A stretch of 52,840 bases of DNA, taken from positions 1 through 52,840 of the forward strand of contig JAHCSE010000013.1 of assembly GCA_018609195.1 (NCBI GenBank), given 5' to 3'. Positions within the stretch are counted from its first letter, which is position 1; the number at the start of each line of letters is the position of its first letter. A model generated the notes under the pieces. It had not been told where the DNA came from and did no database searches. It worked only from the letters and a program-made list of their open reading frames with translations. Origin of the DNA: Patescibacteria group bacterium. GTDB lineage: Bacteria > Patescibacteriota > Minisyncoccia > Minisyncoccales > RBG-13-36-15. The position numbers were made by a program, and so were the translations under genes. This document shows positions 4,076 to 52,703 of the stretch, piece after piece.

Positions 4076-4162
4076 TTATTTTAAATATTTTGCTTTAGCT
4101 TCATTGTGTTCTTCCAACGTTTTACTAAAAATAGTGTACCCCTCCGGTGTAGATAAATAATA
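4076..4162 (-). pseudogene. Orphan second copy of the mltG C-terminal tail (YYLSTPEGYTIFSKTLEEHNEAKAKYLK*)
   Basis: 24/28 aa identical to the MltG C-terminus at 4457-4543, same reading length, own stop; hand-counted nucleotide identity 67/87. Confidence 0.9.
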
Positions 4163-4178
4163 CCAAAACACGATCACA

Positions 4179-4446
4179 CGGTTTCCCCCGACAGCCCCCG
4201 CGTTTCCCCCGACCCCCGCTTAAGAGGGCTTCCGCCCTCTTACGTCGCTTCGCTCCTATCTCCTCGACGGGGGAAACGCCTTTTCACCCCGTATAGGAAA
4301 ATAGGAGTGAGGAGCCGTAAGGTGACGAACGACGTAAGAAACCGAGGGTTTCTTAAGCTGGGGGTCGGGGTGAAAAGTTCTTGCAGACACCCTCGGTTTC
4401 TAACGTCCCGCTAAAGCGGGACTGTTTTCCGACACAGGGGAAACCG
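4179..4446. repeat. Nested palindromic element between the two mltG tails
   Basis: Outer arms cggtttcccc/ggggaaaccg; sub-stems gcgtttcccccg/cgggggaaacgc (4200/4268) and ttttcaccccg/cggggtgaaaa (4281/4366); shared core 4386-4440. Confidence 0.9.
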
Positions 4447-4456
4447 CTTTTTTGTA

Positions 4457-5485
4457 TTATTTAAGATATCTTGTCTTTGCTATATTATGCTCCTCAAGCG
4501 TCTTGCTAAAAATAGTTTCTCCCTCTGGCGTAGATAAATAATACAAAAAAGGGTTATCTTCAGGATAAACTGCAGTTAAAATACTATCAAGGCCAGGGTT
4601 GGAAATTGGTCCAAAAGGGAGACCTAAGTATTTGTAGGTATTGTAAGGAGAATCGATTTGAGTTTCCTCTTTTGAAATTTTGGTTGTTTTCTTTCCGGTG
4701 ATATGCCTTTCAGGATATTTCTCGCTATCGCTCAAAATATAAACTATGGTGGCGTCAACCTGAAGAGGAATATCATGATCTCGCCTCTTCCACAAAATTC
4801 CAGAAACCAATTTTTTATCTTCAAAAATATTAACCTCCTTCTCAATCAAAGAAGCCATGGTAATGACTTCAAAAATAGTTTTTCCTTGAAGACTGATTTC
4901 CTCTCTTATATCTTGAGTAAGTTTTCTATCAAAGTTGGCAAGCATCTTTTTAACAATCTCGTCCATACCTGCCCTAAAAGAAAATTGATAGGTATCTGGG
5001 AATAAAAAACCTTCAAGATTAGCTTCCTTGGGAGAATCCTTTAAAAATTCAAAATCTTCCCGAAAAGAACTAATCCCCAATTCTTTTATTCTATCACTAT
5101 TGACAAAATTTTCTGATAATTTTTTGATTATTTCATTTAAATTAAATCCTTCAGGAATGGTTATTGTAATTTTTACAACTTTACCTGAAACAAATTTTTC
5201 TGTAATTTCAGGAGCAGTCATTGCAGGTGATAATAAATAGTCCCCCGCTTGAAGCTGACCTGAAACTTCTTTAAAAAAGGTATACATTCGAAATAAAGAT
5301 GCGCTCTTAATTAAGCCCTCCTTTTCTAAATGAAAAGCAATTTCCTTTGTCCCCTCCCCTTCTTGAATTACAAATATCTTTTCTATTTTGGAACTTTGGT
5401 CTTTTGGGAGATAAATTCCTTGCCAGACGAAAAATCCGAAAATTAAAATAAAAAATAAAAATAAAAGAATAAAATATTTTCTCAT
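4457..5485 (-). CDS. mltG: Endolytic murein transglycosylase MltG (YceG-like)
   Basis: EGEGTKEIAFHLEKEGLI..., MASLIEKEVN, PYNTYKYLGLPFGPISNPGLDSI. Confidence 0.93.
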   Translation of the reverse strand: MRKYFILLFLFFILIFGFFVWQGIYLPKDQSSKIEKIFVIQEGEGTKEIAFHLEKEGLIKSASLFRMYTFFKEVSGQLQAGDYLLSPAMTAPEITEKFVSGKVVKITITIPEGFNLNEIIKKLSENFVNSDRIKELGISSFREDFEFLKDSPKEANLEGFLFPDTYQFSFRAGMDEIVKKMLANFDRKLTQDIREEISLQGKTIFEVITMASLIEKEVNIFEDKKLVSGILWKRRDHDIPLQVDATIVYILSDSEKYPERHITGKKTTKISKEETQIDSPYNTYKYLGLPFGPISNPGLDSILTAVYPEDNPFLYYLSTPEGETIFSKTLEEHNIAKTRYLK

Positions 5486-16162: not shown

Positions 16163-16210
16163 TTATTTTTTAGTCTCTTTATGTAGGGTATAGCGCCTGC
16201 ACCCCTTACA
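16163..16210 (-). pseudogene. Orphan second copy of the rpmG C-terminal tail (CKGCRRYTLHKETKK*)
   Basis: Same length as the RpmG tail [15 protein letters not shown]; 10/15 aa identical; abuts tRNA-Trp. Confidence 0.85.
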
Positions 16211-16366
16211 TCGCTCGCTTCTCGCTCGCTCTTTAGACACCCACGGTTTCTAACGTTCGAGCACATAAAGCGTTATGTGCTCGAGCCTGTTTTCCTACAC
16301 GGGGAGATGCCCACTGTTCACACACAGCCCAATCTCCCCGACCTCCTCTGTGGTAAATGGTGTCGC
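16211..16366. repeat. Palindromic element between the two rpmG tails
   Basis: Core GGAAAACAG-[GCTCGAGCACATAA..TTATGTGCTCGA]-ACGTTAGAAACCGTGGGTGTCTAAAGAG on minus strand, plus ggggagat/atctcccc stem. Confidence 0.85.
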
Positions 16367-16525
16367 TTATTTCTTTCCTTCCTTATGGATTGTATGTTTG
16401 CGACACCATTTACAAAACTTCTTTAATTCCAATTTTTTCTCAGTGATTCCTTTTGATTTATGAGTGTAATAATTAATTCTTTTGCATTCTTGACACTGAA
16501 GTTTAACAAATGGTTTTTTTGGCAT
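16367..16525 (-). CDS. rpmG: 50S ribosomal protein L33
   Basis: [52 protein letters not shown] (missing from supplied ORF track). Confidence 0.93.
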
Positions 16526-43526: not shown

Positions 43527-43622
43527 CTAAATATCTAGATTTTTTACCTTTTTCGCGTGTGCCTGGATAAATTTTTTCCACGGGAACACTTCATCTCCCA
43601 TGAGGATATCAAAAATACGATC
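43527..43622 (-). pseudogene. Orphan second copy of the gyrB C-terminal tail ([31 protein letters not shown])
   Basis: 30/31 aa identical to the GyrB C-terminus at 43723-43818, but only about 74/96 nt identical. Confidence 0.93.
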
Positions 43623-43722
43623 ATCAAATTTCCCCCGGCCCCCTCTTTTAGACACCCACGGTTTCTAACGCTCGCTTCGCTCACTGTTTTCCTTCACGGG
43701 GGAAATTTCATTTTTAATATCC
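43623..43722. repeat. Palindromic element between the two gyrB tails
   Basis: AAATTTCCCCCG/CGGGGGAAATTT outer arms; core AAGGAAAACAGTGAGCGAAGCGAGCGTTAGAAACCGTGGGTGTCTAAAAGAG. Confidence 0.92.
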
Positions 43723-45711
43723 TTAGATGTCTAAATTCTTGACCTTCTTAGCATGCGCTTGGATGAACTTTTTTCTGGGAAAAACTTCGTCTCCCATGAG
43801 GATATCAAAAATTCTGTCTGCTTGTTTGGCATTTTCAATAGTTACTTTCTTTAAAATTCGATTTTCAGGATTCATAGTAGTTTCCCAAAGTTGCTCAGGA
43901 TTCATTTCTCCTAAACCCTTATATCTTTGAATAGTTAGCCCTTCCATTCTTCCTTTGGAAGATTTTTTTATTGAACTTAAAATTTCTGCTTTATCTGCTT
44001 CAATGTAAGCATACTCTACTCTTTTTCCAGCCTGAATTCGATACAAAGGGGGCTGTGCAATATAAAGATAGCCGCTCTCAATTATTGGTTTGAAATGGCG
44101 ATAAAAAAGAGTTAAGAGCAAGGTTTTGATATGATTTCCATCTGAATCTGCATCTGCCATTAAAATAATTCGGTGGTATCTTAATTTATCTAAGTTAAAA
44201 TCATGGGCAATAGCTGTTCCCAAGGCAATGATTAAAGCTCGAATTTCTTTAGAAGCTAAAATTTTATCGAGTCTTGCCCTTTCCACATTTAAAATCTTTC
44301 CCCGTAAAGGTAAAATAGCCTGGAAACGCCTGTCTCTAGCCTGCTTACCCGAACCTCCAGCTGATTCGCCTTCGACAATATAGAGTTCAGATTCTTCTGG
44401 TTTTTTCGAGATGCAATCTGCTAGTTTTCCAGGTAGAGAAAGGCCTTCTAAAGCTCCTTTTCTTAGAACAGTTTGCCGAGCGGCTTTCGCTGCCTTTCTC
44501 GCTTTAGCCGAAAGTAAGGATTTTTCAATTATTAACTTCGCATCCTGAGGATTCCTTTCTAAAAAATCAGTTAAGCTTTCTGAAACGATGGTTTCTACTG
44601 CTAATTTCGCTTCAGGATTTCCTAATTTTGCTTTCGTCTGCCCTTCAAATTGGGGCTCTCTTAATTTTACCGATATCACTGAGGTTAATCCCTCTCTGAC
44701 ATCTTCACCATTAAGATTCTCCCCAATCTCTTTCAAATAGTCATTTCTTCCTGCATAATCATTTAAGGTTCTGGTTAAAGCCGCCCGAAAACCAGTTAAA
44801 TGAGTCCCTCCTTCTTCAGTATGAATATTATTGGCAAAACCTTCTTCATAGCTTTCATATTCTTGGGTATATTGAAAGGCAGCTTCAACTAAAATTTCCT
44901 CTTTCTCTCCAGAACAATAAAAAACATTAGGATGAACAAGATTTTGTCCTCGAACCAAATGGTTGATATAAGAGACGAGGCCCCCCTCAAAATAAAAACT
45001 GTAATCTTTTTTCTCCCCCTCTCTTTGGTCAGAAATAGTGATTCTTATTCCTTTGGTTAAATAGGCCTGTTGGCGGAGGTGATTTAAAATTCTTTTTAAA
45101 TCAAATTTAACTTCTCTGAAAATTTCAGGATCTGGTTCGAAAATAACAGTGGTGCCAGTTTGTTTGCATTTCCCGACTTTTTTCACTTTGCTCCTTGTCT
45201 TTCCTCGGGCGTATTCCTGAATATATTTAAAACCGCCTCGACAAACTTCTGCTCTCAACCATTTGGAAAGCGCACAAACTACAGATACCCCTACTCCGTG
45301 CAAACCCCCTGCTACCTGATAGGCTTTTCCTCCAAATTTAGCTCCGGCATGCAGCGTCGTCATCACTGTTTCCAGGGCTGATTTTTTTGTCTGAGGATGT
45401 TTTTCAATCGGGATTCCTCTTCCATCATCGACAGTTTTCACTTTATTTCCAGGAAACAAAGAAACTTCAATATTTTTACAGTAACCTGCCATGGCTTCAT
45501 CGGCTGCATTATCATAAACTTCCCAGACTAAATGATGAAGCCCGTCTGGGCCAGTTGAACCAATATACATTGCCGGCCTCTTTCTTACCGGTTCTAAACC
45601 CTCCAGAACATAAATGTCTTTTGCCTCATAAGTAGATTCTTTCTCCACTCTGGCTGATTTTCTCTTTCTTTCAAGCTTTCTTTTTTTTATTCTGGTTTTT
45701 TTGCGAACCAT
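43723..45711 (-). CDS. gyrB: DNA gyrase subunit B
   Basis: RKRPAMYIGSTGPDGLHHLVWEVYDNAADEAMAG, EGESAGGSGKQARDRRFQAILPLRGKILNVE. Confidence 0.96.
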   Translation of the reverse strand: MVRKKTRIKKRKLERKRKSARVEKESTYEAKDIYVLEGLEPVRKRPAMYIGSTGPDGLHHLVWEVYDNAADEAMAGYCKNIEVSLFPGNKVKTVDDGRGIPIEKHPQTKKSALETVMTTLHAGAKFGGKAYQVAGGLHGVGVSVVCALSKWLRAEVCRGGFKYIQEYARGKTRSKVKKVGKCKQTGTTVIFEPDPEIFREVKFDLKRILNHLRQQAYLTKGIRITISDQREGEKKDYSFYFEGGLVSYINHLVRGQNLVHPNVFYCSGEKEEILVEAAFQYTQEYESYEEGFANNIHTEEGGTHLTGFRAALTRTLNDYAGRNDYLKEIGENLNGEDVREGLTSVISVKLREPQFEGQTKAKLGNPEAKLAVETIVSESLTDFLERNPQDAKLIIEKSLLSAKARKAAKAARQTVLRKGALEGLSLPGKLADCISKKPEESELYIVEGESAGGSGKQARDRRFQAILPLRGKILNVERARLDKILASKEIRALIIALGTAIAHDFNLDKLRYHRIILMADADSDGNHIKTLLLTLFYRHFKPIIESGYLYIAQPPLYRIQAGKRVEYAYIEADKAEILSSIKKSSKGRMEGLTIQRYKGLGEMNPEQLWETTMNPENRILKKVTIENAKQADRIFDILMGDEVFPRKKFIQAHAKKVKNLDI

Positions 45712-51833: not shown

Positions 51834-52703
51834 ATGAAAGAACTGATTGAGGAGTTTCTCAGTTTTCTCAAGACCGAGCGAGCAGCAGCTGAGAATACGG
51901 TTTCAAGCTATAGAGGAGATTTAAGACAATTTTCAAGTTTTTGCAGTAATCAATCTTTGACAGCAGTGACTCCAGAAATCCTCCAGGATTATCAGAATTG
52001 GTTGAAAAGAAAAGGTTTTGTCAGCTCAACAATAGCTCGGAAATTCGCCAGCCTAAGATCTTTCTTTAATTATTTGACAGCAGAAGGAATAATAAAGGGA
52101 AATCCAGCAGAGAAGGTCGCTATCCCTCAAAATGATACCAGAACAATTTCTCGGCTGTTAACTAATGAAGAAATAAAAAGGCTTTTGGAAATTCCAGCTA
52201 AACTTTCTACCCCCAAAGCAATAAGAGATTTAGCGATATTAGAATTAATTCTGGGCACAGGAATTCGAGCAAACGAACTGGCATCTCTTAATGTAGAGAT
52301 GGTCAATCTAGATCCCGAGAATCCATATCTCTCAGTCGATAAAAAGGGCAAGGTGAGGAAAATTCCTATCCCTTCTCAGACAGCTGAAGATCTCCAGCAA
52401 TATTTAAAAGAGGTAAGGCCAGCCTTGGCTATTTACCACCCCAAGGCGCAGGCTCTCTTTCTGAATCAAAGCCGATGGCGATGGGGTGAAAGACTGACTC
52501 GCCAAGGTGTCTGGATAATAATTCGAGGGTGTGCTCGGGCAGCTGGGTTAGAAGGTAAGGTAACTCCTGAAACTTTAAGACATAGCTTTGCTGCTCGGCA
52601 ATTAGCTCTTGGAGTCTCTTTGAAAAAGCTCCAGGAATTACTTGGCCATACTTTTCCCTACACTACTTCCCTTTTACAGGAAAAACTCCAGGTTCATAGT
52701 TAG
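51834..52703 (+). CDS. XerC/D-like tyrosine recombinase family protein, catalytic Tyr apparently missing
   Basis: GTGIRANELASL, TPETLRHSFAARQLALG, LQELLGHTFPYTTSLLQEKL*. Confidence 0.85.
   Translation: MKELIEEFLSFLKTERAAAENTVSSYRGDLRQFSSFCSNQSLTAVTPEILQDYQNWLKRKGFVSSTIARKFASLRSFFNYLTAEGIIKGNPAEKVAIPQNDTRTISRLLTNEEIKRLLEIPAKLSTPKAIRDLAILELILGTGIRANELASLNVEMVNLDPENPYLSVDKKGKVRKIPIPSQTAEDLQQYLKEVRPALAIYHPKAQALFLNQSRWRWGERLTRQGVWIIIRGCARAAGLEGKVTPETLRHSFAARQLALGVSLKKLQELLGHTFPYTTSLLQEKLQVHS

Follow-up and report, generated by a model that had tools for sequence, protein, structure and literature searches.

The gyrB locus of this Patescibacteria group bacterium, located in a 52,840-nt stretch of contig JAHCSE010000013.1 (assembly GCA_018609195.1; hereafter the window), is best explained as a member of a family of small mobile elements that lack an ORF and carry the end of their target gene with them, a reading to which we assign a probability of about 0.75. 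The mobile unit would consist, in order, of a short sequence X1, the rest of the gene end (tail 1), a short arm (R) and a structured core, and would insert exactly between the body of a gene and a short target X close to where the gene ends. The body would then be joined to the end that the unit brings, leaving the gene whole, with the resident copy (X2-tail 2) moved downstream. The unit would move as DNA, and homologous recombination would help carry occupied alleles between species, leaving tails that are alike near X and unlike towards the stop. The copies form a family with a shared anatomy and recur at the same genes in different genomes, unoccupied alleles (which the earlier note proposed to look for) are present among relatives, and in the informative cases tail 1 is foreign and tail 2 native.

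The gyrB coding sequence (43723..45711, minus strand; from the ORF list and Pfam) contains DNA gyrase B, Toprim and C-terminal domains in a profile search, and gyrB comparison places Candidatus Nealsonbacteria and Staskawiczbacteria nearest among named genomes. It is composed of a body (45711-43813) and a putative replacement 3′ end of 30 codons, stop included (X1 and tail 1, 43723..43812, minus strand), where X1 is the opening 13 nt of tail 1, ATTTTTGATATCC. Between the stop codon and the core, touching both, lies the R arm, GGATATTAAAAAT (43710..43722, minus strand), identified from inverted repeats. The core itself is 93 nt of the permuted type B (43617..43709, minus strand), recognized by its multiple copies and covarying family structure, and is ordered AAATTTCCCCC..AGGAAAACAG-hairpin-CGTTAGAAACCGTGGGTGTCTAA..GGGGGAAATTT..GATGATCGT; the RNA fold at the element has z = -2.6. 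X2 and tail 2, the probable displaced original 3′ end, follow at 43527..43616 (minus strand). The earlier note, made from these letters alone, had described a second gyrB tail behind a palindromic element, and this description holds, the element being the 93-nt core preceded by 13 nt that repeat the start of the tail in inverted orientation. That inverted copy, which had also been noticed after the real stop, is the R arm, and it is complementary to the start of tail 1 at 12/13 positions, the odd position being a G.U pair if the arm is RNA. The hand count of 22 differences in 96 nt proves exact, and all residues but one do match between the tails, but the Asp-Arg (GATCGT) with which tail 2 had been made to begin is not tail sequence. 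It is the element's own end, TGATCGT(G), also found in the mltG copies, where TGATCGTG is the terminus at the position equivalent to the end of the gyrB element; the homology of the gyrB tails therefore begins at ATTTTTGATATCC and not at Asp-Arg. Counted from this true junction, the tails differ at 19/90 nt. As had been claimed, nearly all of these changes are synonymous: 17 codons differ synonymously (TAA/TAG included) and one nonsynonymously, with AGA (Arg) becoming TGG (Trp) in tail 2 at a position where the gyrB tails of all relatives compared have Arg. The 23 identical nucleotides reported near the junction are likewise present as a block, ATTTTTGATATCCTCATGGGAGA, that begins exactly at it.

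The arrangement at gyrB is not a chance one, because the core is multicopy and the tail duplication recurrent. About 17 core copies are found by DNA search in the 854-kb genome that contains the window (G000), and a covariance model matches 24-25. With this model, the core is found in 23/60 relatives, reaching 33 copies in one genome, and in 18/287 genomes sampled across Patescibacteria. Its length ranges from roughly 70 to 280 nt across the family, with no ORF, and its fold comprises two covarying helices linked by a near-invariant AGGAAAACAG segment; 97.9% of cells in these helices are paired, as against 30-60% in slid controls. An Rfam search with 16 copies at thresholds relaxed to E 5 placed no core above a gathering score, the sole strong match being a tRNA. 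The window itself holds three core copies, at gyrB, rpmG and mltG, all on the minus strand. In rpmG (ribosomal protein L33), tail 1 (16367..16413) is followed by an R arm (16353..16366) complementary to X1 at 14/14 positions, a type A core of 142 nt (16211..16352) and tail 2 (16163..16210). In mltG, tail 1 (4457..4550) is followed by the R arm (4447-4458), a 278-nt core with a related element nested within it (4169..4446) and tail 2 (4076..4168). Compared with most copies, those at gyrB and mltG are circularly permuted. Copies that are nested in or adjoin inverted core relatives, of a AGGAAAATAG..GTAAGAAACC variant, occur at window positions 4169-4446 and at locus L038, and these variants suggest several subfamilies.

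The same anatomy is seen in dozens of copies, which we term class I: the gene body is followed by X1, tail 1, the stop, R, the core and GCGAC, and then by X2 and tail 2. The rule is that the sequence from the insertion point to whichever end of the gene is nearer is present twice and the gene remains whole. In 27/83 copies adjoining the end of an ORF, the tail duplication lies above the 99th percentile of mismatched pairs. The 3′-end targets, which we named by inspecting the protein sequences, include gyrB, fusA, gap, pgk, rpsI, rpsJ, rpsG, rpmG, rpmJ, rplK, mltG, polX and murC, among others, and identical genes (gyrB, fusA, gap, a peptide-binding protein gene and femX) are targeted in different families. 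Inverted copies duplicate 5′ ends instead, those of rnhA (L131), rpmF (L079), rpmG (L126) and rpsO (L101), read partly by hand translation, and so bring replacement N-termini rather than C-termini. The T-arms of tRNAs are duplicated as well. In one genome (G023), the unit stands in exact head-to-tail repeats at tRNA-Arg and tRNA-Glu (L056, 1031-1760; L077), which confirms the unit borders, and a further copy lies at tRNA-His; the copies at all three tRNAs start at GGGTTCGA of the T-arm. An assembly or strain-mixing artefact, which the earlier note had named as a possible undoing of its claim, could be entertained for a genome assembled in 39 contigs. It is hardly credible given that many genomes, each assembled separately, show identical anatomy at corresponding genes.

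Counting against the mobile-element reading are the many core copies that lie between genes without any tail duplication (class II). This class comprises 27 rows, including a few imperfect matches (e.g., L036, L051, L089, L095, L098, L117). Its left border is a conserved ATCCCAnATCGGAAGG, and its right border, GCGAC..TTTGTATTACCACTATG, abuts a start codon and resembles a leaderless promoter, as in an example between groES and groEL. In the intergenic copies L027, L028, L084, L106 and L135 and the inverted copy in L005, a short hairpin of related sequence takes the place of the gene tail; this opening hairpin is TATCGGAA..TTCCGATA or TATAGGAA..TTCCTATA, and a GAACATAG..CTATGTTC hairpin is often found at the end of these copies.

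Which of the two tails was brought in can be judged where their proteins differ. Here, it is usually tail 2 that resembles the uninterrupted gene of relatives, and tail 1 has a foreign look. The polX gene of G001 has a body and a tail 2 of the type found in G031 (GWAEKEDIINTQSL), but a tail 1 (GWATAEDIINVYPLAKMIKFLK) of a different type. When 247 genomes of the order were compared, the nearest relative of this tail 1 was in G370, a genome of another family, where polX has the element at the identical site with a matching R. The tails of a glycosidase-like gene in G001 and of ctp in G020 lead to the same conclusion. The opposite direction is seen at rpmG of G000, where tail 1 looks more family-like than tail 2. 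At gyrB, the two tails are nearly equidistant from the nearest relative, G002 (67/87 nt for tail 1, 70/87 nt for tail 2), and over all loci of G000, tail 2 is only slightly nearer the family orthologues, at distances near synonymous saturation. From these comparisons, we favour tail 1 as the import and tail 2 as the displaced original, the gyrB distances themselves being too saturated to tell. This sharpens the first alternative that the earlier note had offered, an element bringing a replacement tail, which the comparisons favour: the element would indeed bring one, and the import would be the upstream tail joined to gyrB. The tails are not "recoded", as had been suggested; they appear to be orthologous alleles from different lineages.

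A rival account is simple local duplication, in effect a long target-site duplication whose two copies then drifted independently. The 35 tail pairs hold 171 synonymous and 83 nonsynonymous codon differences, where unconstrained change would give 39 and 217. This synonymous excess indicates that most pairs consist of two alleles, each in use as they diverged, rather than of one working and one drifting copy. Nonsynonymous changes are thus far too few in the diverged pairs for one copy to have been unconstrained, and certain tail 1 copies are not of the host's own type. Some pairs are nevertheless identical (fusA of G024, gyrB of G014), so new insertions may begin as exact duplications. For the diverged pairs, however, a duplication origin appears largely refuted, in line with the earlier doubt that a simple recent duplication could yield this pattern, and as an account of the locus we regard it as very improbable. 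A diversity-generating retroelement does not fit either: there is no association with reverse transcriptase, and the changes in the gyrB tails are mostly synonymous and fall at mixed bases rather than specifically at adenines.

Several tail 2 copies carry defects. An in-frame TAG lies within X2 of polX in G000, the frame is shifted at X2 in three copies at the peptide-binding protein gene (L029, L064, L107), the stop is lost in tail 2 of L088, and the T-arm is broken in tail 2 of the tRNA copy L062. Together with the Arg to Trp change in gyrB, these lesions indicate that tail 2 copies are in early decay. They sit poorly with an intron-like mechanism, in which splicing would remove tail 1 and the core and join the body to tail 2, with R as an internal guide for X1 and X2. 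Such a mechanism could account for the ability of R to pair with both X1 and X2, for a structured core with compensatory changes and for the protein sequence being largely kept in both tails. However, tail 1 alone completes the protein, and the core has no intron match in Rfam; we consider splicing improbable.

Beyond this genome, second tails are present in gyrB of other genomes and in many other genes, which removes the earlier concern that relatives might lack one at any comparable locus. In gyrB, they occur in only 9/224 genomes of the order in which gyrB was matched. Direct reading showed both R and a core in gyrB of G014, G355, G357 and G509, no more than about 8 nt from the site in G000. 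Second tails of a KKVKNLDI-like sequence are also found after the stop in G022 (L145), G059 (L141) and G462 (L396); these are short and have no recognizable core, and would be either relics of lost elements or relics of another element type. The insertion points in gyrB lie a few nucleotides apart between genomes and two polX sites about 6 codons apart, which argues that some insertions were independent and not the result of strict homing.

Several tail pairs are mosaic. In gyrB of G355, the tails are identical from X for about 51 nt and then differ synonymously, in G509 they are identical except for about the last 9 nt, and in G357 the differences are scattered; in G014, as in fusA of G024, the pairs are identical throughout. 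The fusA tails of G002 are identical for 62 nt from X and then synonymously different to the stop. Among longer tail pairs, differences lie farther from X than expected, at a mean relative position of 0.615 (null 0.478, sd 0.019). This fits either of two events: an occupied allele is imported and crosses over within tail 2, or one tail is converted by the other. Homologous recombination is thus probably part of how the element spreads, and the second alternative of the earlier note, homologous replacement by a divergent allele, survives as a probable contributor and not as the favoured main explanation. Taken to its limit, this alternative becomes a passive scar, in which occupied alleles spread by ordinary homologous recombination alone and the core is an old, immobile repeat that hitchhikes with them. 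The mosaic tails, including those of fusA in G002 and of gyrB in G355 and G509, speak for it, as does the loss of affinity to the same-family G002 over codons 540-620 of gyrB in G000. It fails to explain the 24-33 copies per genome at unrelated genes and tRNAs, the constant unit borders, the tandem units and an R arm matched anew to each target, and the bodies of polX and pgk in G000 are family-like right up to X. We therefore judge a purely passive spread to be unlikely, although it is the strongest competitor to the mobile-element reading.

In class I copies, the first 8-19 nt of X1 recur in R as their reverse complement, and the end of R touches the core. R is complementary to the upstream X1 in 36/111 copies (6% expected) and to X2 in 27/111 (4% expected); pairing with X1 is better than with X2 in 19 copies, equal in 11 and worse in 4. 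In polX of G001, R matches X1 and not the native X2. We infer that R recognizes or organizes X at the junction. Rather than serving as a fixed guide, it may be formed or re-formed upon insertion, as both these counts and the gyrB sites a few nucleotides apart between genomes would suggest. In the tRNA copy L062, native sequence that by chance can pair with X forms the start of R, and the remainder of R is copied from X, a structure that suggests fold-back synthesis.

Candidate mobilizing enzymes were sought among the element-bearing genomes and the others, and none of the three examined (Y1 transposase, extra tyrosine recombinase, reverse transcriptase) tracks the presence of the element. Y1 transposase (PF01797) occurs in 13/23 element-bearing genomes and 19/37 others, with no match above threshold in the two genomes richest in the element, G000 and G020, and no clear core lies beside RAYT genes; this lack of association argues against a non-autonomous element of the IS200/IS605 or REP (RAYT) kind. 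Extra PF00589 genes are likewise not associated (7/23 element-bearing versus 7/37 other genomes), and the 93-nt gyrB core has no tyrosine integrase ORF. A second gene of the tyrosine-recombinase family does lie near the end of the window (52158-52667, plus strand; PF00589, E 1e-29), and the same-family genomes G001 and G002 likewise have two such genes each. Reverse transcriptase (PF00078) is found in 2/23 element-bearing versus 11/37 other genomes and was not found in G000, G001, G002, G006, G018, G020, G023 or G031. The gyrB core contains no homing endonuclease ORF, and the gyrB, rpmG and mltG cores (93, 142 and 278 nt) are too short for one. More tentatively, we propose that the family could represent a new class of ORF-less Patescibacteria element, in which core and R direct insertion immediately upstream of X and build or carry the gene end each time, with a host factor acting in trans. 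If so, it would constitute a natural tail-swapping system that reaches many essential genes and spans families.

Mobile DNA is usually shut out of essential genes. By supplying the gene end itself, this family would gain access to them, and in these reduced genomes it reaches dozens of universal genes and tRNAs. Pieces of housekeeping genes imported from other families could distort the 3′ ends in gyrB, fusA and ribosomal-protein phylogenies, and tail import could misplace annotated gene ends. The question it poses is what moves a small, ORF-less DNA so precisely. We found no description of this element in the open-access PMC literature, which is only part of the whole, and known systems share some of its features. 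Integrative islands and phages in the 3′ ends of tRNA genes use a T-arm site, restore the 3′ end from the element and form tandem units, as this element does, but it is far smaller, has no integrase and mostly targets protein genes. MITEs, REP and BIME sequences are short, hairpin-rich, multicopy and non-autonomous. The element is similarly short, hairpin-rich, multicopy and non-autonomous, but it carries a gene end, which to our knowledge none of these do, and it has no association with Y1 transposase.

The closest bacterial parallel is the e14 prophage in icd of E. coli K-12, where in-frame insertion brings a new 3′ end and leaves the original tail (icdC) downstream (PMC11148124, PMC4444293). 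The replacement end is 165 bp long, with 12 nt exchanges and 2 conservative replacements, and precise excision restores the ancestral icd (PMC11148124, PMC4444293). As with e14, the element's imported gene end is fused in frame and the original end is displaced downstream. Whereas e14 is a prophage of about 16 kb that encodes an integrase and has a single target, this family has an ORF-less core of ~70-280 nt, reaches up to dozens of copies per genome and uses many genes, tRNAs and 5′ ends. A similar order is found in fungal mitochondrial mobile ORFs with foreign C-termini, at atp6 of Allomyces and at atp6, atp9, cox2 and nad3 of Glomus, where an imported in-frame C-terminus is followed by the element and then by the native C-terminus, and the native copy groups with relatives while the inserted one does not (PMC3630166). 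These fungal elements carry an endonuclease ORF, whereas the Patescibacteria element has a structured core and an R arm in its place, with no ORF.
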